Shown in pieces: positions 30,278-49,786 of a stretch of DNA of 64,000 nt (positions are counted from its first letter, which is position 1; every line of letters begins with the position of its first letter). Made by a program: the position numbers and the translations under genes. Under the pieces are notes generated by a model. It searched no databases, had not been told where the DNA came from, and saw only the letters and a program-made list of their open reading frames with translations. The stretch comes from Minwuia sp. (GTDB taxonomy: Bacteria; Pseudomonadota; Alphaproteobacteria; Minwuiales; Minwuiaceae), in NCBI GenBank assembly GCA_029210175.1, contig JARGPL010000004.1:1-64000 (forward strand). The letters run 5' to 3'.

Positions 30278-32182
30278 CTACTGGACTTCGCGCAGAAGTG
30301 CCGGGTCAATGGCCTGGATCATGGCCTGACGGTTCACGCCGACGCTGAAATCCTGGCGCAGCTGCTGCTGGTAGGTGGCAAAGGCATCTTCTGCCATGGA
30401 TTGGCCGATTGCGGCTTCCAGCGCCTGGATCTGCTCAGCGCTTTCGAGCGGATTGGCCGCAACGATGTCCGTCACCTGTGCCACCACCTGAGCCGGTTCC
30501 GCCGCATGCTCACCGCCAGCAAAGTCACCGCGTGCAGCGGTGAACAGCACGGTACGCAGCGTCCCGGCGATTTCCGGTGCGCCACCCTGACGCGTGACGG
30601 CTTCAGCGGTCAGGACGGTCGCGCCAAATTCCGATGCGATATCCGCCAGCGCCACGCCACCCTGCAGTCGCTCCAGCAGCTTGTTGCGCGCATCCGCTGC
30701 GGCCTTGGCCAGATTCTCGGCCTGCCAGGCGGCGGTCACTGCGTCCTGCACGTCTGCGAAGGGGCGCAGTTCCGGGGTGATCACCTCTGCGACTTCCACG
30801 ATGTAATAGCCGCCATCGGGGGTTTCCTGCAGTTCCAGATCGTCGTCCGGGCTCTGGCGGAACCCCGACACGAGCGCGTCAGACAGGATCGGCGTTTCGA
30901 GTTCGACACCGGCGACATCGACGCCATTGCGATCAACCGGCCCGATTTCCCGAACGGCAATCCCGATGGCATCACCGACCGCACGCAGACGGTTGCCGCC
31001 TGCCAGTTCGTCCTCGACCTGGATGCCCAGATCAATGATCCGCTCCAGCGCATCTTCGATGCGAATGATCTCGGTCAATTCCTCCCGGACCTCTTCAAGG
31101 GGCCGGGTGCTTTCCGGCGTGACGGCGGTGACATGCACCAGATGCCAGCCAAACGCGGTTTCAACCGGGCCGGCGACGCCACCAACCTCACTGCTGAAGA
31201 CAGCCTCCCCCAGCGCGCCGGGCAGATCGCCCGGAGAAACGGTGCCCAGACTGGTCGGGCTGGACCCGATCTGCGCTTCGACGGCGGCGCTGAAGGCGAC
31301 ACCTTCGTTCACTTTGGCCAGCGCCGCGTCAGCAGCCTCCTGATCGGGGAAGATGGCCTGTTCGGCATCCCGCGTTGCGGGCACGGTAAAGCTCGCCAAC
31401 TGGCTCTCATAGGCCTGCTGGAGTTCTGATTCAGGTACATCGATCTCGGCTGCCACCGTCTCCGGCGACAGGTCGATCAGCAGGATACGGCGGCGTTCCG
31501 GCGTGGAAAACAGCTCCGGATGCCCTTCGTGATAGGCCCGCAGTTCAGCCTCCCGCGGCGGTTCGGTCGCGGCCAGGGCATCATTCGCGATCGTGATGTA
31601 TTCGAACGATCGCGCCTCGTTCTCGAACGTGAACAGCGCCCTGGCGAATGAATTGACACCGACATCCAGACCGGCGGTCACGGATGCCTCTATCTGGCGG
31701 CGCAACAGGTCGCCACGCAGTTCCTCCGCGAAGGCATTGGGCGACGCATAGCCCAGGAAGCGGATGGCCTGTTCGAAGCGCACCGGGTCGTATTCGCCAA
31801 GCTGGTTCTGGAAACTCGGGTTGGTGTGGGCTGCGGCGTTGACGGCACTGTCCGGCACGGCCAGCCCCAGTTCGGATGCACGCAGGTTCAGCGTCTGGCG
31901 GTCGATCAGCGCCGACAGCACCTGATCATAGACGCCCAGGGTCAGGGCCTCGCGCGGCTGCAGCACCATGTTCTGCTGTTGCTGCAACAGACGCAGGCGG
32001 CGGTTCGCCTCCCGCTGGAAGGTGTAGGAATCGATTTCCGTGTCACCAACCTGGGCCACCGGCGGGTTCACCGGCCCGGTGATGTAGTCGTTGATGCCCC
32101 AGAACGCAAAGCTGATGACGAGCAGGATGAGAAGGATCCGTACGACCCACTTGCCTGCGCCCTTGCCCATATTGCTGATCAT
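30278..32182 (-). CDS. ppiD: Peptidylprolyl isomerase, PpiD-type (SurA N-terminal and parvulin domains)
   Basis: The 634-residue protein is anchored by one N-terminal helix (GKWVVRILLILLVISFAFWGI) and projects into the periplasm. A SurA-like chaperone region follows (YTFQREANRRLRLLQQQQ... to about residue 200), then a parvulin domain (about 235-370: ASFTVPATRDAEQAIFPDQE...GDLPGALGEAVFSSEVGGVAGPVETAFGWHLVHVTAV) and a long C-terminal region that is weakly conserved. PpiD assists folding of outer-membrane and secreted proteins near the Sec exit. It is divergent from tpiA and stands ahead of trpE, the usual alphaproteobacterial order. Confidence 0.92.
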   Translation of the reverse strand: MISNMGKGAGKWVVRILLILLVISFAFWGINDYITGPVNPPVAQVGDTEIDSYTFQREANRRLRLLQQQQNMVLQPREALTLGVYDQVLSALIDRQTLNLRASELGLAVPDSAVNAAAHTNPSFQNQLGEYDPVRFEQAIRFLGYASPNAFAEELRGDLLRRQIEASVTAGLDVGVNSFARALFTFENEARSFEYITIANDALAATEPPREAELRAYHEGHPELFSTPERRRILLIDLSPETVAAEIDVPESELQQAYESQLASFTVPATRDAEQAIFPDQEAADAALAKVNEGVAFSAAVEAQIGSSPTSLGTVSPGDLPGALGEAVFSSEVGGVAGPVETAFGWHLVHVTAVTPESTRPLEEVREELTEIIRIEDALERIIDLGIQVEDELAGGNRLRAVGDAIGIAVREIGPVDRNGVDVAGVELETPILSDALVSGFRQSPDDDLELQETPDGGYYIVEVAEVITPELRPFADVQDAVTAAWQAENLAKAAADARNKLLERLQGGVALADIASEFGATVLTAEAVTRQGGAPEIAGTLRTVLFTAARGDFAGGEHAAEPAQVVAQVTDIVAANPLESAEQIQALEAAIGQSMAEDAFATYQQQLRQDFSVGVNRQAMIQAIDPALLREVQ

Positions 32183-32361
32183 GATCTGCTGCTGCCGTCC
32201 GTGAAATGAGGATGGCGGACATTACGCATGCGCCCGCGCAACCGCAACCGGCGGAAACAGAGCTTTTTCGGATGACGGCAGAGGGCGAATCGGTTGGCTT
32301 GGCCGCCGGGACAGTCGATGCTGTGACCAACACATGAGTTGGCTTGATGCGGGGGGAATGA

Positions 32362-33126
32362 ATGTCGAAGGTATTGATCGCCGGAAACTGGAAGATGAAC
32401 GGGTTGACCAGTGATGCAGCGCGGGAGGCGACGGCGCTCGCTGCCGGTGTCGCCGGGGTTCCCCATGTGCACCTGATGATCGCGCCGCCGACGAGCCTGA
32501 TCCACCCCTTGCGGATCAACCTGTTCGAGCGCGGGATCGCGGACCGGGTCGCCATCGGGGGCCAGGACTGCCACGCAAATGTGAACGGTGCCCACACGGG
32601 CGACGTCTCCGCGGAGATGATTGTCGACCTGGGTGGCAGCTACGTCATTGTCGGCCATTCGGAACGCCGGACTGACCATGGTGAGGGCGATGCGACCGTG
32701 AAGGCGAAGGCCGAAGCCGCGCTGCGCGCAGGTCTGGTCGCGGTAGTCTGCGTCGGCGAAACGGAGGCGGAGCGCAGGGGCGGCGAGACCCTGGACGTGC
32801 TGGCTCGGCAGGTCTCCGGCTCCCTGCCCGACGGCGCCACCGTCACCAACACGGTCATCGCTTATGAACCCGTCTGGGCCATTGGCACCGGACTGACCCC
32901 GTCGACGGATGACATTGTCGAAGCCCACGCGGGCATTCGCGAGACCGCAGCCGGGCAGATCGATGATGTTGCCAACTTGCGCATTCTCTACGGCGGTTCC
33001 GTGAAGCCGGGCAATGCGGCGGAACTGCTGGCGCTGGATGGCGTAGATGGCGCGCTGGTCGGTGGCGCGAGCCTGAAGGCGGCGGATTTCCTGGCCATCG
33101 CGGCGGCGGCTCCGGCGCGCAACTGA
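32362..33126 (+). CDS. tpiA: Triose-phosphate isomerase
   Basis: TpiA interconverts dihydroxyacetone phosphate and glyceraldehyde 3-phosphate. The 254-residue barrel has IAGNWKMNG with Lys11, YVIVGHSERR with His99, AYEPVWAIGTG with the catalytic Glu169, and LYGGSVKPGNA and DGALVGGASL for phosphate binding. All catalytic residues are present. It converges with the SDR-like gene; the palindrome CAACTGA-CTG-TCAGTTG (33120-33136) contains both stop codons and may be a weak shared terminator. The secG and pyrG genes that often follow tpiA are absent. Confidence 0.98.
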   Translation: MSKVLIAGNWKMNGLTSDAAREATALAAGVAGVPHVHLMIAPPTSLIHPLRINLFERGIADRVAIGGQDCHANVNGAHTGDVSAEMIVDLGGSYVIVGHSERRTDHGEGDATVKAKAEAALRAGLVAVVCVGETEAERRGGETLDVLARQVSGSLPDGATVTNTVIAYEPVWAIGTGLTPSTDDIVEAHAGIRETAAGQIDDVANLRILYGGSVKPGNAAELLALDGVDGALVGGASLKAADFLAIAAAAPARN

Positions 33127-33129
33127 CTG

Positions 33130-33993
33130 TCAGTTGTCGTCAGTGGCTGCTTCGTCGTCCCGGATCGCCCGCAGGCCTGTCTGATAATCGGGAAAGCTGA
33201 GCGTCACGCCGAGTTCGGTCTTGATCCGGTCGTTGCTGACCCGTTTGCTCTCGCCATAGAAGCTGCGGCCCATCGGGCTGAGGTCGGCGTCGGCAAAGGG
33301 AATGCCCGGCGGGACCGGCAGGCCCAGCAATTCCGCAGCGAAGGCAACGACGTCCTGCGGCGGGGCGGGAGTGTCGTCGCAGACATTGTAGATGCCGCCG
33401 CGCCGTGGCCGGTCGATCGACGCACACAAGGTGGCGGCGATATCGGCGACGTGAATGCGGGAGAACACCTGTCCGGGCTTGATCACGCGGCGCGCCGTGC
33501 CATTGCGCAGCGCAGCGAAGCCATTGCGGCCCGGACCATAGATTCCCGCCAGGCGGAAGATCTGGACCGGGGCATCGATTTCAGCCTGCAGATCCAGCCA
33601 CTGGTTTTCCGCCAGCACCCGGCGTTCGCCCCGTTGGCCAGCGGGCTTCAGGTCGCCGGTCTCATCCACCCAGCCCCCCTGCCGGTCGCCGTAGACGCCG
33701 GTCGTGGACAGGTAGGCGACCCATTCCAGGCTGCTGCAGTCGCGAATCTGCGCCGCCGCATGGCGCAGCACCGGGTCGCCCGCATCATCCGGGGGCACGG
33801 ACGAGACGATGTGGGTCACCCCATCCAGCGCATTGTCGGCCAGGGGGCCGGTTGCGTCGAACGCAATGGCGGTTACACCGTCAGGCAAAGATCCGGCGCG
33901 GCGTTCGGTCGCCGCAATCGTCGCGCCCCGCGCCGCCAGCATGGGTGCCAGCGCCCGGGCCGAGAAACCGTAGCCAAAACAGAAGAGTTTCAT
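33130..33993 (-). CDS. NAD(P)-dependent epimerase/dehydratase family protein (SDR, YeeZ-like)
   Basis: The 287-residue extended SDR begins with the dinucleotide motif LFCFGYGFSARALAPMLAARGATIAATER (G-x-G-x-x-A). It has HIVSSVPPDDAGDPVLRH, YLSTTGVYGDRQGGWVDE (with Thr-Thr and Tyr of the active site), FRLAGIYGPGRNGFAALR and FSRIHVADIAATL. It resembles the YeeZ group of sugar-nucleotide-like SDRs of unknown substrate. Its start overlaps the glycosyltransferase stop by four bases, placing it last in the leftward 36001-33130 operon. Confidence 0.85.
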   Translation of the reverse strand: MKLFCFGYGFSARALAPMLAARGATIAATERRAGSLPDGVTAIAFDATGPLADNALDGVTHIVSSVPPDDAGDPVLRHAAAQIRDCSSLEWVAYLSTTGVYGDRQGGWVDETGDLKPAGQRGERRVLAENQWLDLQAEIDAPVQIFRLAGIYGPGRNGFAALRNGTARRVIKPGQVFSRIHVADIAATLCASIDRPRRGGIYNVCDDTPAPPQDVVAFAAELLGLPVPPGIPFADADLSPMGRSFYGESKRVSNDRIKTELGVTLSFPDYQTGLRAIRDDEAATDDN

Positions 33994-35216
33994 GGGGCAG
34001 TCTCCAGCCCGAATTTTTCAGCCAGCCGGTCGATGCATCGGCTGAGGTCGAATTCTGTCCGCACCCGCTCCGCACCTGCTGCTCCCATCACCTGCCGCAT
34101 CTCCCCGTCCTGCAGCATGGTCTGCAGGGCGGCAGCCATTGCAGTGGCATCGTCGGGCGGGACCAGCAGGCCATTGTGGCCATGTCTGATCAGTTCCGGG
34201 ATGGCGGATACGTCGGTGGCAACAACGGGCAGATTCTGGCTCTGCGCCTCGACGAGGACGTTGGGTAACCCGTCGCGATCCCCATCATCGGCGATGCGGC
34301 TTGCCAGCACGAACAGGTCAGCTTCACGGCAGGCCGCGATCACTGCCTGCTGCGGCTGGGGTCCCAGCCATTGTACCCGGTCGGCGATGCCCAGATCATT
34401 GGCCTGCTGGCGCAAGGCGTCCAGCTGCGAGCCGCCGCCGATATGGATGAAACGCCAGGGCAACGTCAGCAGCGCCAGCGCGTCCAGCAGCACCGGATAG
34501 CCTTTCTTGGTCACGGCCCGTCCAACCGACAGGATAACCGGCACCTTGTTCAGTGCCTGACGTTCTGGTGGCGGAGGGAAGCGGCTGAGGTCCAGCCCGT
34601 GATAGACCCGCGCGACACGCCCGGCCGGAGCCAGTGCGGACAGATGCTCGGCGTTGGTCTGGGTGCAGGTCACCGCAAAGCCGCAGTCGGCCAGCTTTTC
34701 CCGCTTCTCCCATTCCGGGCTGGTCCAGATGTCCTTGGCGTGGGCGGAGACACTCCACGGCAGACCCTTGAGTGCGGCGGCGTAACGGGTGACGGACGCG
34801 GGTGTGTGCAGGAAATGCGCATGCAGCCGGGTCACGGTGGCAGGCAGTTCCGCCGCCAGCACCACGGCCTGGCCGAAGCGCCGCACCCGGTTCACGGTGG
34901 GGTCGCGCCTGTAATCCGCTTCGAACAGCGACACAGCCATGGCCCAGGTCGGCCAAGCGCTGCAGGTTTTCCAGGCCGCCCGAACGCGGACCGGATCGTC
35001 GCGCAGATACTCCGGCAGATAGGTCACGGGCGCGGCAATCTCTGCATGAACCGGATGGCTTGCGGCATCGGTCGGGTGGCGCAGCGACCAGATATCGATC
35101 GGCAGACCCCGCTGCTCCAGCGCCAGGATTTCCTGGGCGATGAAGGTTTCCGACAGTCGGGGATACCCCTTCAGGATGAATGCGACCCGGCCATTCATGC
35201 CTGTTTCGCTGCTCAA
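33990..35216 (-). CDS. Glycosyltransferase family 4-type protein
   Basis: The 408-residue retaining GT-B glycosyltransferase begins RVAFILKGYPRLSETFIAQEILALEQRGLPIDIWSLR, the typical N terminus of exopolysaccharide or colanic-acid-type transferases. It continues with VARVYHGLDLSRFPP, VPVILSVGRAVTKKGYPVLLDALALL, ADLFVLASRIADDGDRDGLPNVLVEAQSQNLPVVATDVSAIPELIRHGHNGLLVPPDDATAMAAAL, including the E-x7-E motif. It uses a nucleotide sugar on the cytoplasmic side. It overlaps the genes on both sides, in an operon with a TylF-type methyltransferase, so the product is probably a methylated surface glycan. Confidence 0.9.
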   Translation of the reverse strand: MSSETGMNGRVAFILKGYPRLSETFIAQEILALEQRGLPIDIWSLRHPTDAASHPVHAEIAAPVTYLPEYLRDDPVRVRAAWKTCSAWPTWAMAVSLFEADYRRDPTVNRVRRFGQAVVLAAELPATVTRLHAHFLHTPASVTRYAAALKGLPWSVSAHAKDIWTSPEWEKREKLADCGFAVTCTQTNAEHLSALAPAGRVARVYHGLDLSRFPPPPERQALNKVPVILSVGRAVTKKGYPVLLDALALLTLPWRFIHIGGGSQLDALRQQANDLGIADRVQWLGPQPQQAVIAACREADLFVLASRIADDGDRDGLPNVLVEAQSQNLPVVATDVSAIPELIRHGHNGLLVPPDDATAMAAALQTMLQDGEMRQVMGAAGAERVRTEFDLSRCIDRLAEKFGLETAP

Positions 35217-36001
35217 GCCGGCTTCACGCCGATGCGCGCAGCTGTGTCGATGCGGTTCAGGTAGGGGCGATTGCCCTCCGTCTCGAAATACTCGTCCGTT
35301 GCCTGGCGGGCACCTGCGTAGGCACCGTAATCATCGATGATCAGGAAGCCGCCGGTGGACAGACGCGGATAGAGGTGGGTCAGTTCATGGTGCGTGGACC
35401 GATACCAGTCCGTATCCAGCCGCAGCATGGCGATCCGGTCAGGTGCAACGCCGGGGATGGTTTCTTCCACCACACCCTTCACATAGATCAGGCGTTCTTC
35501 CGGGTATCCGGTGCTGGCCAGGTTGGCCTTCACCTGGTCGATCGGTGCGTAACACCACTCGTTATGGTCATCGCGCTGCTGCATTTCCCAGCGGCTGATC
35601 TGTTCCATGCCGTCGCGCTGACGCACGTCCACCTCTTCAGGCTTCACCATGCCGGTATAGGTGTCATAGAGGTAGATGTTGCGGTCCGTGACGCCGAGGT
35701 GCAGCAGGGTAAGGGCCATGGTCATGGCGCTGCCCCCCTCCCACACGCCGCATTCGACGAAGTCGCCGGGAATGTCCTGTTCCACGATGTGGCGGGTCGC
35801 GGCAAAGAGGGCATGCACGCAATCCGGCGTGGTCAGCGTGTGGTCACCCACCTTGGCGAATATCTCGCTGAAGATCGGTTCCATGTCGCGCGGCAGCTTC
35901 ATCTGCCGGTTGCGCAACCCGTGCTGGGGCAGTTTCCGGAAGGTGAAATCGTAGCCGTAGCGCAGGGCAAGCTTCTTCAGTGACTTGTTGACGTTCGCCA
36001 T
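35213..36001 (-). CDS. TylF/MycF family O-methyltransferase
   Basis: The 262-residue protein belongs to the macrocin-O-methyltransferase group. Characteristic stretches are IPGDFVECGVWEGGSAMTMALTLLHLG (SAM motif I), IYLYDTYTGMVKPEEVDV with the second motif, IYVKGVVEETIP, IAMLRLDTDWYRSTHHELTHLYPRLSTGGFLIIDDYGAYAGARQATDEYF, which carries the metal-binding Asp residues (LDTD and IDDY). Relatives methylate sugar hydroxyls. ATG 36001 is preferred; the frame to 36199 overlaps the dioxygenase gene out of frame. It is followed with a four-base overlap by the glycosyltransferase. Confidence 0.88.
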   Translation of the reverse strand: MANVNKSLKKLALRYGYDFTFRKLPQHGLRNRQMKLPRDMEPIFSEIFAKVGDHTLTTPDCVHALFAATRHIVEQDIPGDFVECGVWEGGSAMTMALTLLHLGVTDRNIYLYDTYTGMVKPEEVDVRQRDGMEQISRWEMQQRDDHNEWCYAPIDQVKANLASTGYPEERLIYVKGVVEETIPGVAPDRIAMLRLDTDWYRSTHHELTHLYPRLSTGGFLIIDDYGAYAGARQATDEYFETEGNRPYLNRIDTAARIGVKPA

Positions 36002-36020
36002 GAGTGACCTGTCTCTGAAT

Positions 36021-36764
36021 TCAGGCTGCGCGGGCCGGGTCGCGGCCCAGACGGCGTTCCTGCAGGCGCCGGTAAGGCGCGGGAAGCTGCAGCTCGGTTC
36101 CGACATTGCGGAAATGAAATCCGAGGCTGATACGCGGCTCATCGGTGCGATTGTGGAACGACGCGTGGACCGTGTAGGTGTGGGCAAGCACGGCATCACC
36201 GGCTTCCAGTACCAGCGGGACCGGATCGCGGAACGCGCTCATCTCGCAGCGCAGGTTCTCCAGCCCGAACTCGTCGGTGGCGACGTCATGGAACATGCGG
36301 CCCAGCAGGTGCGTGCCCGGCACCATCCAGATGCAGCCATTGTCCTCGTTCGTTGCCTGCATCGGCACGAAGACACAGCAGACCCGGGAATCGCTCAGAC
36401 CCCAGTAGACGCCATCCTGATGCCAGTGCTTCGTGCGTACTTCATGCGGCAGCTTTGTGAAGGCAAAGCTCTGCAGCAGTTCCGACGGGCCGTTGGCAGC
36501 CTCGATCACGCCTCTGACGCGGTCGGACTGCATCAGCGCATCGACGGCCTCAGACTTGGTGTGAATGTCCTTCTGGCGACGATGGTTCTGCGCCACCAGC
36601 GTTTCGATATCCGGGCGTACTTCAGCCAGCCGGGCCGCAGGGATCCAGTTCTTCAGGACGACAAAGCCGTCCCGATTGAACTGATCAGCCTGTTCCGGTG
36701 TCAGCAGATCGCCCGCTGGCGCAGGCACGAACTGCTGTTCTTCGATGAAATCATTGATCGCCAT
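36021..36764 (-). CDS. Phytanoyl-CoA dioxygenase (PhyH) family 2-oxoglutarate/iron oxygenase
   Basis: The 247-residue protein has FNRDGFVVLKNWIPAARLAEVR, the typical PhyH opening, and RTKHWHQDGVYWGLSDSRVCCVFVPMQATNEDNGCIWMVPGTHLLGR with the H-x-D iron ligands, followed by VLAHTYTVHASFHNRTDEPRISLGFHFRN, which supplies the distal His and the Arg for 2-oxoglutarate. The residues for iron and cosubstrate are present. Relatives hydroxylate lipids, small molecules or sugars. The stop is 19 bases from the TylF start in the same direction, so it is probably in the glycan operon. Confidence 0.87.
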   Translation of the reverse strand: MAINDFIEEQQFVPAPAGDLLTPEQADQFNRDGFVVLKNWIPAARLAEVRPDIETLVAQNHRRQKDIHTKSEAVDALMQSDRVRGVIEAANGPSELLQSFAFTKLPHEVRTKHWHQDGVYWGLSDSRVCCVFVPMQATNEDNGCIWMVPGTHLLGRMFHDVATDEFGLENLRCEMSAFRDPVPLVLEAGDAVLAHTYTVHASFHNRTDEPRISLGFHFRNVGTELQLPAPYRRLQERRLGRDPARAA

Positions 36765-36883
36765 GACGGGATATCTAGTCTCTTGGTTGCCAAACGAAAA
36801 GGTGCCCGCACCCCGTCAATTCCTGCAGCATCGTCGCAGGTCGGATCCGTGCGGGGCCAGTGCCCGACGCCGGATGCATCAGG

Positions 36884-38101
36884 TCAGTTGAACTTGCGCA
36901 CCGCATTCGAAGGGGTTCCGGTGTTCCGTTCCAGCCACGGCTTTGCCAGACGATTGACGTTGGTCAGCCCCTCAAGCAGGCCCGGCACGATGATTTCCGA
37001 AGGTTTCTTCTGTCGCGGCAGGGCGCGGATGGCGGCGGCCATGACCTCCGGATCGCGCTCGTCCTCCAGTGGTGTCATCTGCACCAGACCAAGCGCCTGC
37101 GCCCGCTCGGCCCGAATGGTCTGTTCCATCCGGGGCACGCTGCGCGGCACGATGATGGCACGCTTGTCCAGCGACAGCACCTCGCAGAAGGTGTTGTAGC
37201 CGCCCATGGCAACAACCCCGGCGGCACTGGCCATCAGGTTCTCGAAATGCGGATCGAAAGTGATCGCCTCCACACGGTCAAGCTTCGCCGCACGCTCATG
37301 GAAGCCGGCCTGAAGCTCCGGCGCCATGAAGGGGCCAAGCGCCAGCAGTGCCGGATAGGGCAGCAGCGGATCGGTCTCGTATGCCTTCAGCACCCAGTCG
37401 ATCAGCGCATCGCCATCGCCGCCGCCGCCTGTCGTGACCAGCAGGAACGGGCGGTTGGTGATCTCCGGCAGCGAAACGGACGGCGCGGTGCTCGGTCGAC
37501 GGGGCAGGTAGCCGGTGTAGACCATCTTCTGCGCAACACTATCGGGGATATCCAGCCCTTCGAGAGGGTTGCAGATCTGCGGCAGACCATAGACCCAGAT
37601 GTCGTCGTAGAGGTTTTCCAGGGCGGGCAGCACGTTCTTCTTCTGCCATTCCGGAACCAGCAACTTGGGCTCATCCATCACATCGCGCAAACCGAGGACC
37701 AGCCGGGTGCCGCGCTTCTTCAGCATTTCCAGCGTCGGCATGACCTCGCCACGCAGGCCCAGGGGTTCCTTGTCGACGATGAAGATGTCGGGATCGAAGC
37801 TCTCGGCCGTGTGCTGGATGATCGATGCCCTGAGCGCCAGCATGTCCTCGATATCGAGATGCAGGTTGAGGGAGGTATACTCACCGTTCCTCAGCTTGAT
37901 CACACCCGGAACGCGGACGAAGTCCACACGTGCCCGGAAGTCGAAGCTGCCGATGATCGGCGATCCGGAAAGGATCAGCACCGATAGGTTCTTGTTGTTC
38001 TCGACCAGCGAATGGGCAATTGCCCGGCAACGCCGAAGGTGTCCCAGCCCGAAGGTATCGTGGCTATAGATCAGGACACGCGAACCTTTTCCGTTCGCCA
38101 T
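36884..38101 (-). CDS. Glycosyltransferase, GT28/MurG-like predicted family
   Basis: The 405-residue protein begins SRVLIYSHDTFGLGHLRRCRAIAHSLVE, the G-x-G-H-x-x-R motif of GT-B enzymes related to MurG and CotSA-type predicted glycosyltransferases. It has DPDIFIVDKEPLGLRGE, LLVTTGGGGDGDALIDWVLKAY and AAGVVAMGGYNTFCEVLSLDKRAIIVPR (nucleotide-binding region G-G-Y-N-T). There is no membrane segment. The sugar donor is unknown. A 119-base gap separates it from the dioxygenase gene. Upstream is a 267-base divergent interval to the ABC operon that holds promoters only, as far as I can see. Confidence 0.85.
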   Translation of the reverse strand: MANGKGSRVLIYSHDTFGLGHLRRCRAIAHSLVENNKNLSVLILSGSPIIGSFDFRARVDFVRVPGVIKLRNGEYTSLNLHLDIEDMLALRASIIQHTAESFDPDIFIVDKEPLGLRGEVMPTLEMLKKRGTRLVLGLRDVMDEPKLLVPEWQKKNVLPALENLYDDIWVYGLPQICNPLEGLDIPDSVAQKMVYTGYLPRRPSTAPSVSLPEITNRPFLLVTTGGGGDGDALIDWVLKAYETDPLLPYPALLALGPFMAPELQAGFHERAAKLDRVEAITFDPHFENLMASAAGVVAMGGYNTFCEVLSLDKRAIIVPRSVPRMEQTIRAERAQALGLVQMTPLEDERDPEVMAAAIRALPRQKKPSEIIVPGLLEGLTNVNRLAKPWLERNTGTPSNAVRKFN

Positions 38102-38368
38102 TCAATTCCCCATTGCGCCGATTGTTCCGGCTAGTGTTGCGCCGGACTATGGCAGAATCGCCACGTAGCGGCAAATGGGTAATATCGAGGCAGTTTCGTG
38201 CGGCGGTATTCGCGGCACTGTTTCCCGCCCGCAACGTGATAGGCATCAGCTACCAAGTTGATTGTCGGCAACCCGACGCTCCACTAAGGTTTGGTTTGAT
38301 GGATACGTCAGCGCGGCGTTAGCCCCGGGGTGGTCGGCGTCGTGTCTGAAGCGTGAGGGGGAAGCGGC

Positions 38369-41095
38369 TTGGAACGGAACATTTTCAGTTTCATCCTGAA
38401 ATACAGCTACCGCCAGCAGATCGTGCTGGTGTTGCTTGCCGTGATCAACATGCCGTTCACGATGCTTGGCTATCAGCTGGTCGAAAAGATCGTCAACGAA
38501 GGCATTCAGGGTTTCCGCAAGGTGCCCGAACAGGTGACGCAGGACGACGGCTCCATCATTGAGAAGTCGGTCAAGATGATGATCGAATTCCCGGAGGCCG
38601 TGTTCGGCATCGGACCCGAGTTCGATCAGGTCATCTTCCTGTTCGTGCTGGTCGGGCTGTTCCTTGCCAATATCCTGTTGCTGCAGGGCATCAAGTACGC
38701 CCTGAACGTCTATCGCGGCGTGACGGCGGAACGGATGCTGCGGCGGCTGCGTTATGCGCTGTTCCAGCGCGTGCTGCGCTTCCCCAAGCCGACGTTCAAG
38801 AAGACCAGCCAGGGTGAGGTGATCTCCATGATCACCGGCGAAGTGGAACCCCTGGGTGGTTTCGTGGGTGAGTGTTTCTCCCTGCCGGTCATGCAGGGCG
38901 GCATCATGCTGATGTCGCTGGGTTACATGCTGATCGCCGACTGGAAACTGGCCCTGGCTGCCGTCGCGCTCTATCCGATCCAGTTCTACATCATTCCGAA
39001 GCTGCAGAAGCGGGTGAACCTGCTCGGCAAGGAACGCGTCAAGCGGGTCCGCAAGCTGTCGGAAAAGATCGGTGAGACGGTCACCGGCATCAACGAAATC
39101 CATGCACATGACGGCTCCAACCTGGAGCTCGCAACGTTCTCCGAACGCCTCAACGGCATCTATTACATCCGCCTGCAGATCTACATCTGGAAGTTCATCA
39201 TCAAGTTCGTGAACAACTTCATCCAGCAGCTGGGTCCGGTGATGTTCTACTCCATCGGCGGCTACCTGGTGATCAAGGGCGATCTCGATCTCGGTACGCT
39301 GTTCGCCGCCATCAGCGCACACAAGGAAATCGGGGCACCGTGGAAGGAACTGCTGGGCTATTACCAGCGCCAGGCCGATGCCCGCATCAAGTACGAACAG
39401 GTGGTGGAGCAGTTCGCCCCGGCCGGCCTGTTCGACGAAGAGCGGCTGATGAGCGAACCGGAAACTCCGGTGACGTTCGAAGGCAATGTGAACGCAAGCG
39501 GCATCATCCTGACCGACGACCAGAACAACAGTGTGCTCGACTCGGTCAGTTTCACCCTTGCGCTGGATCAGAAGGTGGCCCTGGTTGGGGCTGGCGGATC
39601 CGGTCGCGATGAATTGTCGGAAGTGCTGGCCCGCCTGATCGAGCCGGATCGGGGCACCGTCACCTTCGGCGGACACGACCTGAGCGCCTTGCCGGAATCG
39701 GTGACCGGACGGCGGATTTCCTACGTCGACAATGCGCCGTTCGTCTTCAACAAGACCCTGGGCGAGAACCTGTTCTATGGTCTGAAGCATCGCCCGCTGA
39801 AGGATGCCGAGTACGAAGGCGACCGGAAGAAGGAACGCGACAGCTATGTCTCCGAGGCCAAGGCGTCCGGTAACCTTGATTTCGATCTGGGTGCGGACTG
39901 GGTGGACTATGATGCTGCCGGTGTGCCCGACACCGCAGGTCTGCGCCAAGCCGGCATCGAGGCGTTGAAGATCGTCGGACTGGACGAGGATGTTTATCAG
40001 TTCGGCCTGCGTGGCCGGATCAACCCGGAAACCCGCGCTGATATCGCCGATGGTGTCCTGAAGGCCCGCAAGGCGCTGGACGAGCGGCTGACCGATCCGT
40101 CGCTTGCCGTGCTGATCGAACGTCTGGACCCGAATTCCTACAACACCAATGCCTCGCTGGCGGAGAACCTGCTGTTCGGCACGCCGGTGGGCGACACCTT
40201 CGACCTCGATCGCCTGGCGGAGCATCCCTACATTCAGGAGGTACTGGAAAAGGTCGGCATGACCAGTCAGATGGTCAGCATGGGCTACCAGGCGGCCGCG
40301 ACCATGGTGGAGCTGTTCTCCGATCTGCCGCCGGATCACGAACTGTTCCAGCAGTTCAGTTTCGTGTCTGCCGACGACCTGCCGGAGTTGCAGGGCCTGC
40401 TGGCGCAATACACCAAGGATCAGCTGGATACGCTGAAGCCGCATGAGCAGCTTCGCCTGATGTCCCTGCCGTTCAAGCTGATCCCGGCACGCCATCGTCT
40501 GGGCATCATCGACGATGAAGTCATGCCGCGGCTGCTGGAAGCGCGCAAGGCATTCGCCGGGAACCTGCCCGATAACCTGCAGGGTGCCGTCGCATTCTTT
40601 GATCCGGACGAATACAATGCCGCCGCGAACATTCAGGACAACATCCTGTTCGGCAAGATTGCCTACGGGCAGGCCCAGGCACAGGAACGTGTCGGTGCGC
40701 TGATGCGCGAAGTCATGTCGGAACTGGGCATCATCGAAACCGTTTCGGAAGTGGGGCTGGAGTTCGAGGTCGGTATCGGTGGGTCGCGCCTGACCGGTGC
40801 GCAGCGCCAGAAACTTGCACTGGCCCGTGCTGTCGTGAAACGTCCTGACGTGCTGATCCTGACCGAAGCCACGGCGTCGCTGGATACCAGCAGCCAGGCC
40901 CGCATTCTGGACGGCCTGCTCGGCGCGTTCGAAGGCCGGTCCATCATCTGGGGTGTGCATCGCCCGGCGATGGCCGAACGGTTCGATCATATCCTCGTCA
41001 TGAAAGGCGGGCGTATCGTCGAAAGCGGCAGCTTCGCCGAATTGAACAAGGAAGGCACGGCGCTCTCAGAGATGATAGCCGCCGAAGCCGCGTAG
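38369..41095 (+). CDS. Atypical ABC transporter protein: membrane domain fused to a degenerate, expanded nucleotide-binding domain
   Basis: Residues 1-340 form an exporter-type ABC membrane domain with extended helices (VLLAVINMPFTMLGY, IFLFVLVGLFLANILLLQG, FSLPVMQGGIMLMSLGYMLIA). The nucleotide-binding domain starts near 370, but its Walker A is GAGGSGRD (407-414), with Arg and Asp replacing Lys and Ser/Thr. The signature is LTGAQ (808-812), and Walker B is DVLILTEATASLD (827-839), with Thr832 replacing Asp although Glu833 remains. His864 is present. About 330 residues are inserted between the Q-loop region (NAPFVFNKTLGENLFYG, 455-471) and the signature, and that insert repeats N-A-S-L-A-E-N-L-L-F-G (594-604) and N-I-Q-D-N-I-L-F-G (754-762). 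TTG 38369 is the only workable start after an upstream stop, with GAGGGGGA before it. Confidence 0.85.
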   Translation: MERNIFSFILKYSYRQQIVLVLLAVINMPFTMLGYQLVEKIVNEGIQGFRKVPEQVTQDDGSIIEKSVKMMIEFPEAVFGIGPEFDQVIFLFVLVGLFLANILLLQGIKYALNVYRGVTAERMLRRLRYALFQRVLRFPKPTFKKTSQGEVISMITGEVEPLGGFVGECFSLPVMQGGIMLMSLGYMLIADWKLALAAVALYPIQFYIIPKLQKRVNLLGKERVKRVRKLSEKIGETVTGINEIHAHDGSNLELATFSERLNGIYYIRLQIYIWKFIIKFVNNFIQQLGPVMFYSIGGYLVIKGDLDLGTLFAAISAHKEIGAPWKELLGYYQRQADARIKYEQVVEQFAPAGLFDEERLMSEPETPVTFEGNVNASGIILTDDQNNSVLDSVSFTLALDQKVALVGAGGSGRDELSEVLARLIEPDRGTVTFGGHDLSALPESVTGRRISYVDNAPFVFNKTLGENLFYGLKHRPLKDAEYEGDRKKERDSYVSEAKASGNLDFDLGADWVDYDAAGVPDTAGLRQAGIEALKIVGLDEDVYQFGLRGRINPETRADIADGVLKARKALDERLTDPSLAVLIERLDPNSYNTNASLAENLLFGTPVGDTFDLDRLAEHPYIQEVLEKVGMTSQMVSMGYQAAATMVELFSDLPPDHELFQQFSFVSADDLPELQGLLAQYTKDQLDTLKPHEQLRLMSLPFKLIPARHRLGIIDDEVMPRLLEARKAFAGNLPDNLQGAVAFFDPDEYNAAANIQDNILFGKIAYGQAQAQERVGALMREVMSELGIIETVSEVGLEFEVGIGGSRLTGAQRQKLALARAVVKRPDVLILTEATASLDTSSQARILDGLLGAFEGRSIIWGVHRPAMAERFDHILVMKGGRIVESGSFAELNKEGTALSEMIAAEAA

Positions 41096-41108: not shown

Positions 41109-41582
41109 TTGAGCCTCAACGAAGAAGTCGAACTGCTGCGCCAGATCCCGATGTTCCAGAAAGTGGAGCAGTCGAAGCTGAAGCTGCTGGCCTTCACCTC
41201 GGAGCGACTGAGCTTTCCTGCCGGACAGGTGGTCTGCGAACAGGGGGAGCCGGGGGATTCCATGTATGTGATCGTGCAGGGGGATGCCGATGTCATCGTC
41301 AACCTGCCGAACGGACCCCTGACGGTCGCAGCCCTGCACAAGAACAGCTTTTTCGGTGAGATCGCCATCCTCTGCGATATCCCGCGTACCGCGACGATCA
41401 AGGCAAAGACGGAACTGGTGACGCTGCGCATCACCAAGGACCTGTTCTACCGCCTGGTTTCGGAGTTCCCGCAGATGACCATCGAGATCATGCGCGAAAT
41501 CGCATTCCGTCTTGACCGCACGACGCAGGACCTGCAGCAGGCCCGCAACGACCTGAACAAGTTGCAGGGCGCCGACAGCTGA
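41109..41582 (+). CDS. Cyclic nucleotide-binding domain protein
   Basis: The 157-residue protein is a free-standing cNMP-binding beta roll: LLRQIPMFQKVEQSKLKLLAFTSERLSFPAGQVVCEQGEPGDSMYVIVQGDADVIV, then HKNSFFGEIAILCDIPRTATIKAKTELVTLRI, with the FGE-I and P-R-T-A phosphate cassette of cAMP/cGMP receptors. It has no DNA-binding domain; a C-terminal helix (DRTTQDLQQARNDLNKLQ) may be a coiled coil. TTG 41109 follows GGGGAGAA. It lies 13 bases after the ABC gene, so it may sense a nucleotide and control that protein. Confidence 0.88.
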   Translation: MSLNEEVELLRQIPMFQKVEQSKLKLLAFTSERLSFPAGQVVCEQGEPGDSMYVIVQGDADVIVNLPNGPLTVAALHKNSFFGEIAILCDIPRTATIKAKTELVTLRITKDLFYRLVSEFPQMTIEIMREIAFRLDRTTQDLQQARNDLNKLQGADS

Positions 41583-41584
41583 TC

Positions 41585-42073
41585 GTGAGCCGACTTGATT
41601 CCGCCATTGACCGCCTGACGGCTCAGCGCGCGTGCCTGGATTGGGCCGCAGCAGCTATCGCAGGGCTGGCCGGGCCGGTGCTGGAACTCGGCCTCGGCAA
41701 TGGGCGGACCTATGATCATCTGCGAACCCTGTTGCCGACACGGCGCATTCATGTGTTCGAGCGACAGGTGAACGCGCACCTCGACTGCATTCCGCCCGAC
41801 GAAGACCTGTTTCTCGGGGATTTCCTGGAAACGCTGCCCGGCGCCGGACGGGTGATCGGCGCACCCGCCGCGCTGGTGCATGCCGATACCGGCACCGGGG
41901 AAAAGGCGGCCAGTGTGGCACTGGCTGCGGCCATCGTGCCGCTGCTGCTGCCGGTGCTGGCCTCCGGGGCCGTACTGGTCAGCGACCAGCCCATGCAGCA
42001 CCCCGGACTCGTGCCAGTGCCGCTGCCCCACGGCGTGAAACCCGGGCGCTATCACATCTATCGCAACAGCTGA
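41585..42073 (+). CDS. Class I SAM-dependent methyltransferase-like protein
   Basis: The 162-residue protein has GPVLELGLGNGRTYDHLRTLLPTRRIHVFERQ, the SAM-binding motif I with E-x-G-x-G-x-G and an acidic end to strand beta2. The rest is shorter than usual, and the substrate region is reduced (LLLPVLASGAVLVSDQPM near the end). It starts with GTG 41585, three bases after the cyclic-nucleotide protein stop, so it is the third gene of the ABC operon. Its substrate is unknown. Confidence 0.78.
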   Translation: MSRLDSAIDRLTAQRACLDWAAAAIAGLAGPVLELGLGNGRTYDHLRTLLPTRRIHVFERQVNAHLDCIPPDEDLFLGDFLETLPGAGRVIGAPAALVHADTGTGEKAASVALAAAIVPLLLPVLASGAVLVSDQPMQHPGLVPVPLPHGVKPGRYHIYRNS

Positions 42074-47950: not shown

Positions 47951-48757
47951 ATGCCCAACCGACAGGACGTCCGCCACAACGTCTGGCTGAGCGGCGAATT
48001 CGCCGAGGCCGAAGGGCGGGGCGAGCTTTCCATCGCCTATCAACCCATCGTCGACATGCAGACCCGCCGGATCGTTGGTGCTGAGGCGTTGATGCGCTGG
48101 CATCATGGCACCCGCGGGGCCGTGTCGCCGAATACCTTCATCGGGCTGGCGGAGCCGGAGGGTCTGTTGCACGGCCCGGGCGCCTTCGCGATAGAGACGG
48201 CACTGGATGACCTGGCGATCTGGCGTGCGGCCAGCGATCTTGCCGATGGCCTGTTCGTTTCCGTCAACGTCTCACCCAGCCAGCTTGAGGATCAGGGCCT
48301 GATCGACGGCCTGATCACGACCCTGGACAGTCGTGGTCTGGATGCTGGCGACCTGCATCTGGAACTGACGGAGACCGCACCACCACCGGGGCCGTCCGGG
48401 ACGGCCATGCTCAATCGGCTGCATGGGGCCGGGTTTCATATTGCCATCGACGATTTCGGCACGGGCTACTCATCCCTGCTACGGGTGCAGCACCTGCCCT
48501 GCCGCAGCCTGAAGATCGACCGGGGCTTCACGACCGATCTCGCAACCAGCGCCACATCCCGCGCCATCGTGCGGAGCACGCTTCAACTGGCCCGCGACAT
48601 GGGTCTGGACGTCGTCGCCGAAGGCATCGAGACCGAAGACCAGCGCGATTTCCTGCACGACAACGGCTGTCCGATGGGGCAGGGATACCTGTTCGGCAAG
48701 CCCGCGACGTCAGACGACTTCCGTAGAGCTTTTCTGAATGGCAGCCTAACTCCATGA
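47951..48757 (+). CDS. EAL domain cyclic-di-GMP phosphodiesterase
   Basis: The 268-residue protein is a nearly isolated EAL domain: ELSIAYQPIVDMQTRRIVGAEALMRW with Glu45-Ala46-Leu47, SVNVSPSQLE, LHLELTETA with a metal-binding Glu, HIAIDDFGTGYSSLLRVQHLPCRSLKIDRGFTTDL with the Asp-Asp pair and the Lys, and DVVAEGIETEDQRDFLHDNGCPMGQGYLFGKP with the final Glu and Gln. All catalytic residues appear present, so it should hydrolyse c-di-GMP. It has no sensor or GGDEF domain. It starts 22 bases after the LysE-type stop, and is the last chromosomal-type gene before the recombinase island. Confidence 0.92.
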   Translation: MPNRQDVRHNVWLSGEFAEAEGRGELSIAYQPIVDMQTRRIVGAEALMRWHHGTRGAVSPNTFIGLAEPEGLLHGPGAFAIETALDDLAIWRAASDLADGLFVSVNVSPSQLEDQGLIDGLITTLDSRGLDAGDLHLELTETAPPPGPSGTAMLNRLHGAGFHIAIDDFGTGYSSLLRVQHLPCRSLKIDRGFTTDLATSATSRAIVRSTLQLARDMGLDVVAEGIETEDQRDFLHDNGCPMGQGYLFGKPATSDDFRRAFLNGSLTP

Positions 48758-48817
48758 AAAGCCATCGCACTGGGCAGGCGCTGCTTTGACCGTCAAGGAT
48801 CATTCCTGTGAACGCAT

Positions 48818-49786
48818 TTGCACATGGAGCATTCCCAGATGATCATATCGGACATCGCCGCATTTATGGATTTTTGCAGGGTTCAGCGCGGCCTCAGCCC
48901 GAATACGTTGAGAGCCTACAGGCAGGATCTCGAGAGCTTTGAACGCTTCAAATCTGCGCATGAGCCGGACTGTGAGACGACAGATAGTACGATTGTAAAT
49001 TTCATTGGAAATCTACAAAATGACCAGTGTCTCGGTCCTGCTACCATCAGACGCCGTGTGGTCACTCTACGCTTTTTCTTCAATTGGCGAAGGGATACGG
49101 GAAAGGATATTCGTTCCCCCTTCGAGGGATTGGTGCTTGAACTGAAACTCCCCAAACGACTGCCGCGGCCAGTGGACCGTCCGACGCTTGTACACCTCCT
49201 GCAAGGAACAACAATCGGGGACGTTCAGGCGCCACCTCGCCTGAGAGCGGGTGATCTTGGCCCAGGTGATCATCAGGTCACAGGTTTGGTGGTCAGATTG
49301 CTGCTGTCAACGGGGCTCAGGATTGGCGAGATAACCCGAGTGAGGATCCAGGACGTATCGCATGCCGGCTCGTGCATACGCGTCCGGGGAAAAGGCGACC
49401 GTGAGCGTCAAGTCTATGTCTGCAATGAAAGACTGTTGCTGGAATTCAATGCCTATATCCAGGTCCGCGAAGTGCAGGCGCCGACGACAGAATTTCTGTT
49501 CCTGAACAAGCGGGGCGGACGTCTGACGGAGCCAACGTTCCGAAAGCGGCTCAGGAAGCTTTCAAATGATCTCCTGATCACTCCTCACCTTACACCTCAT
49601 CGGTTTCGCCATTCGGCAGCAACGATGTTGATAGAGGAAGGGGTGGATATTCGCTTCGTCCAGCGATTGCTTGGCCACGCGAATATCTCAACAACCGAAA
49701 TCTACACAAAAGTTTCGGATAATTCACTTGTTTCCGCGATCCGGGACGCAGACACACTCGCAAAAATAGGTTTCCGGTTACGATAA
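48818..49786 (+). CDS. Tyrosine site-specific recombinase (XerC/XerD-like)
   Basis: The 322-residue protein has an N-terminal SAM-like core-binding domain (FMDFCRVQRGLSPNTLRAYRQDLESFERF, then ATIRRRVVTLRFFFNW) and a catalytic domain with all expected residues: Arg168 in STGLRIGEITRVR, Lys192 in RVRGKGDRERQVYV, His261 and Arg264 in TPHRFRHSAATMLIEEG, His287 in LLGHANISTTEIYTKV, and the nucleophile Tyr296. It should be active. The start is uncertain: TTG 48818, ATG 48824 or ATG 48839, none with a strong ribosome binding site. Its last codons and stop lie inside the left inverted repeat. The adjacent repeat is its likely substrate. It is distinct enough in composition from chromosomal xerC/xerD to be accessory. 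Confidence 0.9.
   Translation: MHMEHSQMIISDIAAFMDFCRVQRGLSPNTLRAYRQDLESFERFKSAHEPDCETTDSTIVNFIGNLQNDQCLGPATIRRRVVTLRFFFNWRRDTGKDIRSPFEGLVLELKLPKRLPRPVDRPTLVHLLQGTTIGDVQAPPRLRAGDLGPGDHQVTGLVVRLLLSTGLRIGEITRVRIQDVSHAGSCIRVRGKGDRERQVYVCNERLLLEFNAYIQVREVQAPTTEFLFLNKRGGRLTEPTFRKRLRKLSNDLLITPHLTPHRFRHSAATMLIEEGVDIRFVQRLLGHANISTTEIYTKVSDNSLVSAIRDADTLAKIGFRLR

Follow-up and report, generated by a model that had tools for sequence, protein, structure and literature searches.

The window analysed here, a stretch of 64,000 nucleotides from Minwuia sp. (Alphaproteobacteria), carries a gene for a protein related to ATP-binding cassette (ABC) exporters, followed on the same strand by a gene for a small protein predicted to bind cyclic nucleotide monophosphates (cNMP) (Table 1). 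A first-pass annotation had singled out the ABC gene for its Walker A GAGGSGRD, its signature LTGAQ, a Walker B ending in ILTE and an otherwise normal membrane domain, all of which were found again in an intact open reading frame (ORF) of 908 residues with no sign of sequence error, and it had missed the cNMP-binding gene downstream. From the alignments and structural models, it is shown that the exporter fold is kept, that the ATP motifs are eroded family-wide, that a Q-loop/helical unit is triplicated and conserved, and that a cNMP domain with an intact cassette is linked to the gene.

Fold and ATP site of the ABC protein

Pfam assigned ABC_membrane (PF00664, 99.9 bits against a cut-off of 28) and ABC_tran (PF00005, 64.5 bits against 25) to the 908-residue protein, the latter match being split in two stretches. 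The best NCBIfam match was MsbA_lipidA (TIGR02203), with 220.1 bits far below the cut-off of 602, and two models of NHLM bacteriocin exporters also scored below their cut-offs (139.8 of 709.4 and 162.4 of 853.3 bits). Structure prediction of the whole protein gave a predicted local distance difference test (pLDDT) of 84.7 and a predicted template modelling (pTM) score of 0.79, with pLDDT partly below 50 in the membrane domain. The predicted core of the nucleotide-binding domain (NBD) superposed on the NBD of ComA (3vx4; Z 30.0, 1.7 Å, 239 residues); exporter structures matched the predicted fold at Z of about 29–30, and SUR2 and K-ATP chains were also among the matches. Judged by these profiles and models, the protein belongs with the ABC exporters in descent and fold, though not in its motifs. 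In its transmembrane domain 68 of 280 columns (residues 71–350) show one residue in 90% or more of 138 relatives, the top share among the regions compared, and the domain has many invariant charged residues. An antisense ORF of 914 residues (window 38246–40990, minus strand) spans nearly the whole ABC gene; base composition and codon bias probably account for it.

Six canonical features of the ATP site were scored, namely the Lys and Ser/Thr of Walker A, the Asp and Glu of Walker B, [ST]G[GA] of the signature and the His of the H-loop, of which the window protein retains three (E833, H864 and the signature element). A first alignment contained 138 distinct full-length relatives, after six of 144 had been dropped as identical and fragments, membrane-only and membrane-divergent forms had been left out; zero, one, two, three and four features were kept in 37, 27, 39, 29 and 6 of these proteins, respectively. 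The later set comprised 155 distinct full-length relatives (19 of 174 full-length ORFs being removed as duplicates) and five membrane-divergent ones. Here the corresponding numbers were 47, 30, 41, 31 and 6, so that none of the 155 kept five or six features and the maximum of four was reached in six proteins, while all five membrane-divergent relatives kept none. The changes proposed for comparison among homologues in the first-pass annotation were thus matched by degeneracy in every relative scored, first in the 138 and then in the 155 plus five.

Within the 138-protein alignment, a basic-acidic pair, [KR][DE], occupies the end of Walker A in place of Lys-Ser/Thr in 105 proteins, the Walker B Asp is retained in 11 and is Asn or Ser in 112, and L-[ST]-x-x-Q of the signature is better kept than its glycines. 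Because these three patterns recur, the alteration of the ATP site is read from the alignment as patterned and not as random decay. The second acidic residue of Walker B is Glu in 73 proteins and Asp in 24; still conserved are the D-loop Asp (130), N467 (137) and Q812 (125). An acidic pair is found at the A-loop, at positions 383 (Asp in 94, Glu in 40) and 384 (Asp in 97, Glu in 31), with an aromatic residue at neither. When eight exporter sequences from the same genome (seven distinct proteins) were aligned, Tyr was present in seven and Phe in one, with a gap there in the ten family members shown, and the A-loop aromatic of the window protein seems to be missing. Loss of ATP hydrolysis, which had earlier been raised alongside remodelling, is well supported at the sequence level because motif degeneracy runs through the whole family. 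Intact Walker motifs were not found at a second place in the protein: in a pattern scan of the whole ORFs of 160 relatives, canonical Walker A occurred five times, always at the normal place, and canonical Walker A and LSGGQ never occurred in one ORF.

Table 1 Coordinates of the ABC gene, its parts and the adjacent genes in the window
Feature	Position	Strand	Details
Glycosyltransferase-28-like protein	36884..38101	-	Divergent neighbour; Pfam/NCBIfam
Candidate pseudo-ABC exporter	38369..41095	+	908 aa, TTG start, no internal stop
Type IV (MsbA-like) transmembrane domain	38369..39418	+	Residues 1-350
Degenerate Walker A, GAGGSGRD	39587..39610	+	Residues 407-414
Repeat copy 1	39716..39784	+	Residues 450-472; strand, Q-loop position, ENL-F-G segment
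Inserted region	39806..40678	+	Residues 480-770; folded alone, pLDDT 93.5
Repeat copy 2	40037..40288	+	Residues 557-640
Repeat copy 3	40520..40759	+	Residues 718-797; runs on into signature helix
Degenerate signature, LTGAQ	40790..40804	+	Residues 808-812
Degenerate Walker B	40850..40867	+	Residues 828-833; ends in ILTE (T-E)
Stand-alone cNMP-binding protein	41109..41582	+	157 aa; starts 13 bases after ABC stop codon
Methyltransf_17 protein	41585..42073	+	Next gene, same direction; Pfam

The cNMP-binding partner and the repeated Q-loop segment

The only Pfam domain of the downstream protein is cNMP_binding (PF00027, 73.7 bits against a cut-off of 27.5), and its phosphate-binding cassette, defined by G-E...R-[ST], is intact: GEIAILCDIPRTATIKA. 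Its best match among solved structures was a Toxoplasma protein (PCR12), followed by cGMP- and cAMP-dependent kinases and then by cyclic-nucleotide-gated channels. In a set of 151 cNMP domains of the family that still includes duplicates, all 151 have the cassette Gly and Arg and 145 have the Glu; thus the cNMP site has been retained while the ATP site decayed. A cNMP domain lies adjacent on the same strand in 133 of the 155 distinct full-length members and is fused in 13, giving 146 of 152 assessable members, since the remaining three sit at contig ends. The adjacent match starts a median of 31 bases after the ABC stop codon (range −11 to 618). Before deduplication, among 186 loci that include duplicates and membrane-only forms, the domain was adjacent in 137 and fused in 14. 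No cNMP neighbour was found at the membrane-only and membrane-divergent loci (L060/L194, L083, L184–L188, L192, L193 and L203–L215), and the cNMP link therefore goes with the complete architecture. The genome has ten matches to class III cyclases, so the ligand, cAMP or cGMP, can probably be made, and 11 matches to the cNMP domain, ten of them over the cut-off. A cyclase gene, as would be expected beside the effector in signalling defence of the Pycsar/CBASS type, was not found among the 16 neighbouring ORFs with a Pfam hit (18 scanned, the cNMP gene included, two being hitless).

The insert of the ABC protein lies within the NBD. Walker A and the signature are 401 residues apart, compared with 104–109 in four exporter ORFs of the same genome (12 long ORFs were scanned and both motifs were found by pattern in four, two of which are one protein from overlapping loci), which indicates that some 295 residues, net, have been inserted after the Q-loop position and before the signature. 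The insert itself, as described in the first-pass annotation, is therefore real, though smaller than the 330 residues given there. The Q-loop-like segment, said to recur twice, was located near residues 463–471, 597–604 and 757–762, and profile-profile comparison of the segments 440–550, 550–705 and 705–810 revealed a shared Q-loop/ENL-F-G/helix unit, with E-values of 8.5e-7 (first to second), 6.4e-18 (second to third) and 9.4e-6 (first to third). The scores of these three pairs (41.6, 101.7 and 34.1) are well above the maxima of 60 column-shuffled controls per pair (16.1, 18.9 and 18.0). Against a canonical exporter profile built from four sequences, copy 3 matched the Q-loop-to-signature segment (E 3.7e-5, 65 columns), copy 1 matched over 28 columns (E 1.4e-5) and copy 2 matched poorly (E 0.015, 15 columns). 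Both comparisons support the idea, put forward earlier, that part of the domain has been copied.

No Pfam or NCBIfam family matched the insert in 60 members, and a Foldseek search of its predicted structure against the PDB gave nothing at E 0.001, the best E-value being 0.83. In VIA-align, the top three of the 26 rows listed were ABCB1 1116–1193, IrtAB 737–807 and McjD 428–496, at weak Z-scores of 4.0, 3.7 and 3.3; we take these segments to be the Q-loop/helical parts of the three exporters. These model-based matches agree weakly with the repeat analysis and are no proof of it. Residues of the insert that are invariant in 60 sequences include W511, R726 and N758.

Distribution, selection and neighbouring genes

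All nine genomes searched in the order, and 131 of 385 genomes sampled in the class Alphaproteobacteria, match the protein at E 1e-60 or better. The 131 matches extend over the greater part of the protein, as a single piece or as two, with five exceptions that are partial (G131, G216, G297 and G372) or membrane-only (G329). From the phylum sample, 26 of 299 genomes match the family profile at E 1e-80, 25 of them in Alphaproteobacteria; four (G289, G510, G517 and G633) do so only via a form whose membrane domain is divergent, and the single match outside the class is a membrane-only protein. Named holders include Minwuia, Sneathiella, Azospirillum, Inquilinus, Shinella, Rhizobium and Aureimonas, while a few records with other names, such as a 'Mycobacterium' and an 'Anaerolineae' metagenome-assembled genome, are suspected to be misnamed. 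Rhizobium and Sinorhizobium account for 224 of 262 plasmid records with the family. Where an annotation exists, it reads 'ABC transporter ATP-binding protein' or similar, and no literature on the family was recognised in open-access full text, which lacks most subscription journals. A viral or mobile origin was rejected: viral contigs held no relative in a search reaching close relatives only, and none of 86 matches in phage records spanned 80% of the query.

Purifying selection on the family is shown by the sequence comparisons. Among five close orthologues (10 pairs), the ratio of nonsynonymous to synonymous substitution rates (dN/dS) is 0.013–0.25 whichever region is taken. Evolution is fastest in the Walker A half of the NBD in six of the 10 pairs and in the insert in the remaining four; dN/dS goes up to 0.25 there versus at most 0.065 in the transmembrane domain, and the C-terminal half of the NBD is about as constrained as the latter. 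This pattern fits an NBD kept for shape and contacts, not for ATP.

Several variant forms were also observed. The Minwuia genome itself encodes, at C9 (L083 6068–7111, minus strand), a membrane-only paralogue of 347 residues without NBD and without cNMP neighbour, possibly an accessory subunit. Transmembrane-only relatives were found at 14 places in 13 of 190 class genomes (E 1e-40), and two of 17 membrane-only loci have a canonical ABC ATPase ORF nearby. Conversely, the L184–L188 subfamily has a recognisable NBD and insert (matched by the profile at E 1e-80 or better over roughly 500 to 860) and a transmembrane domain that has diverged almost past recognition; these proteins have no cNMP neighbour and none of the six ATP-site features. 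The homologue on pSymB of Sinorhizobium meliloti 1021 (L199 7685–10436) matches from residue 139 in two overlapping ORFs and seems to be interrupted near its start, and other S. meliloti records have a near full-length match among the matches listed. One study (PMC5539429) describes smb20804 and smb20805, among genes affecting the capsular polysaccharide (KPS) of S. meliloti, whose mutation is reported to alter competitiveness under a plant peptide. Both genes are possibly close to the homologue found at 842 kb on pSymB, and are not used as evidence here.

For the neighbouring genes, relatives were found to be encoded in 97 of 123 pattern-matching stretches, and the best 80 of the 97 were kept as related loci. 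A glycosyltransferase-28-like gene of at least 50% identity is present in 54 of the 80, lying upstream on the opposite strand in 49 of the 54. The Rhizobium etli p42e locus has three glycosyltransferase genes ahead of the ABC gene, with the cNMP gene coming after it, and no glycosyltransferase is annotated near the fused form in Ruegeria. Such neighbours are hints, not firm, of work on envelope glycans or lipids. A Methyltransf_17-like gene occurs in 33 of the 80 loci and its link to the ABC gene is uncertain. On the minus strand at 30278–38101, the window has an envelope/glycan-type run of genes, encoding a SurA-like rotamase protein, an epimerase-like protein, a group 1 glycosyltransferase, a TylF methyltransferase, a PhyH dioxygenase and the glycosyltransferase-28-like protein. 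Further downstream (47951–49786, plus strand), an EAL-domain protein is followed by a phage-integrase-type recombinase. A defence system was not favoured, the PADLOC matches being due to shared ABC and cNMP domains.

Interpretation and comparison with known systems

It seems to us an evenly balanced proposition that the window protein is a pseudo-ABC exporter which does not productively bind or hydrolyse ATP and whose state is set by cAMP or cGMP through the cNMP partner. According to this proposal, an ABC-exporter-derived membrane protein, assumed to be a homodimer, would have two NBDs that no longer bind and hydrolyse ATP productively. The cNMP-binding protein would dock on the NBD or its insert, and cAMP or cGMP, instead of ATP, would alter the NBD dimer and so open, close or re-orient the transmembrane pathway, a coupling mechanism that we infer. 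The outcome would be a cyclic-nucleotide-controlled gate or facilitator on an ABC exporter scaffold. If no ATP site is competent, a gate, facilitator, scramblase or signalling receptor is to be expected, not a pump. As glycosyltransferase neighbours recur, an envelope lipid or glycan intermediate may be guessed, with weak support, as the cargo. More tentatively, the whole family across Alphaproteobacteria might be cyclic-nucleotide-gated, having abandoned ATP as both ligand and energy source, sensing cAMP or cGMP via the partner, with an NBD rebuilt by Q-loop/helical triplication and acting as a passive gate or flippase. The regulated channel or scaffold suggested in the first-pass annotation was a guess at that time and still has its place among these readings.

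A number of observations weigh against control by cyclic nucleotides in place of ATP. An adjacent cNMP domain is lacking in six of the assessable full-length members, and adjacency and fusion argue for a functional link but do not give the direction of control. The Walker A Lys is present in 64 of the 138 aligned relatives, with Arg at the same position in a further 64, and an aromatic residue occurs at 381, two positions before the A-loop pair, in 32. Besides the five relatives with canonical Walker A, the scan of 160 ORFs found LSGGQ in one other. Weak ATP binding may therefore persist in the window protein, which keeps the second Walker B acid and the H-loop His, and would be likeliest in members with both the P-loop Lys and the Walker B Glu. 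These points lead to a slow or ATP-bound exporter as an alternative, in which ATP is still bound, perhaps at an altered metal site, and the cNMP merely modulates an ATP-driven cycle. The intact NBD fold is in its favour, as are the P-loop Gly and basic residue, often kept, together with the D-loop Asp and the Glu or Asp at the second Walker B position. We nevertheless regard it as rather improbable, given that acidic residues occupy the A-loop and the Ser/Thr position of Walker A and that the Walker B Asp and the signature glycine pair are lost, mostly in the same chain, and given the rapid evolution of the Walker A half.

The ABC protein could also be the degenerate half of a heterodimer, whose canonical half-exporter is encoded elsewhere, as for TM287/288 or TAP, or whose other half is the transmembrane-only paralogue. 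In support of such pairing, and against a homodimer, all 13 genomes with a transmembrane-only relative also hold the long protein, compared with 131 of 385 overall; however, relatedness of the genomes weakens this co-occurrence, and the short form is found in fewer genomes than the long one. When the flanks of the 80 loci, some of which end at contig ends, were scanned by pattern, only one locus had a canonical ABC ATPase ORF, and a canonical partner nearby was rejected on this count. Two loci speak against that rejection: in Azospirillum thermophilum, the gene next to the fused form is annotated 'ABC transporter ATP-binding protein' and has substrate-binding and permease genes after it, and the R. 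etli locus has genes for ABC importers upstream of the ABC gene. Both sets were taken for importers. With Walker A, Walker B and signature damaged in one chain, both composite sites would be impaired, and a heterodimer of this kind is very unlikely in our view. Less remote, although still unlikely, is a membrane signalling scaffold or receptor without transport, whose transmembrane part would sense a lipid, a ligand or tension and whose affinity for partners such as glycosyltransferases would be set by the cNMP protein. The eroded ATP motifs, the confidently predicted cytoplasmic insert with its invariant W511, R726 and N758, and the glycosyltransferase neighbours are consistent with this. On the other hand, the neighbours vary among clades, and the transmembrane domain, highest in near-invariant columns and rich in invariant charges, suggests that the pathway itself matters. 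A pseudogene, sequencing error or chance, to which degenerate motifs alone might point, has practically no likelihood and was ruled out by conservation, with full-length open frames in more than 100 species-level genomes, a conserved operon and the dN/dS values given above.

If gating of the ABC protein by cAMP or cGMP were shown, it would come close to a new kind of ABC system, in which the exporter cycle has been uncoupled from ATP and a different nucleotide signal does the gating. It would be a bacterial parallel to CFTR and SUR with even ATP binding gone, and would provide a membrane target for cAMP or cGMP in many Alphaproteobacteria, rhizobia and Azospirillum among them. A further point is the warning that 'ABC transporter ATP-binding protein' annotations in many genomes may denote non-ATPases.

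Among known systems, the ABC protein resembles MsbA and other type IV (type I exporter) proteins in its transmembrane and NBD fold and in its best NCBIfam match, but differs in a score far under the cut-off, eroded ATP motifs, about 295 extra residues and a cNMP partner. NHLM bacteriocin exporters and cyc_nuc_ocin (NCBIfam names TIGR03797 and TIGR03896) likewise combine an ABC exporter with cNMP-type domains in a single system, in which the exporters are taken as ATP-competent; here the scores are far below the cut-offs (139.8 of 709.4 and 38.9 of 161.05). The cNMP-gated K+ channels MloK1 and SthK have a related cyclic-nucleotide-binding domain (E about 1e-15 and 1e-13, respectively) that, as expected here, acts on a membrane protein. 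Their pore is unrelated to the ABC fold, whereas the domain described here is a separate protein or is fused behind that fold. TM287/288, TmrAB, TAP, MRPs and CFTR share the ABC exporter fold and non-canonical Walker B or signature residues. In heterodimeric exporters with a degenerate site, one competent site stays, and it is transporters with one degenerate site that a review of such exporters covers (PMC7756269). In contrast, no competent chain was found near the ABC gene, and its A-loop and P-loop are altered as well. SUR and CFTR provide the precedent of an ABC exporter scaffold that serves gating, not pumping. ABCC7 (CFTR) and ABCC9 (SUR2) retain ATP binding, as stated in that review (PMC7756269). 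In the ABC protein and its partner, by contrast, the ligand would be a cyclic nucleotide bound on a separate domain.

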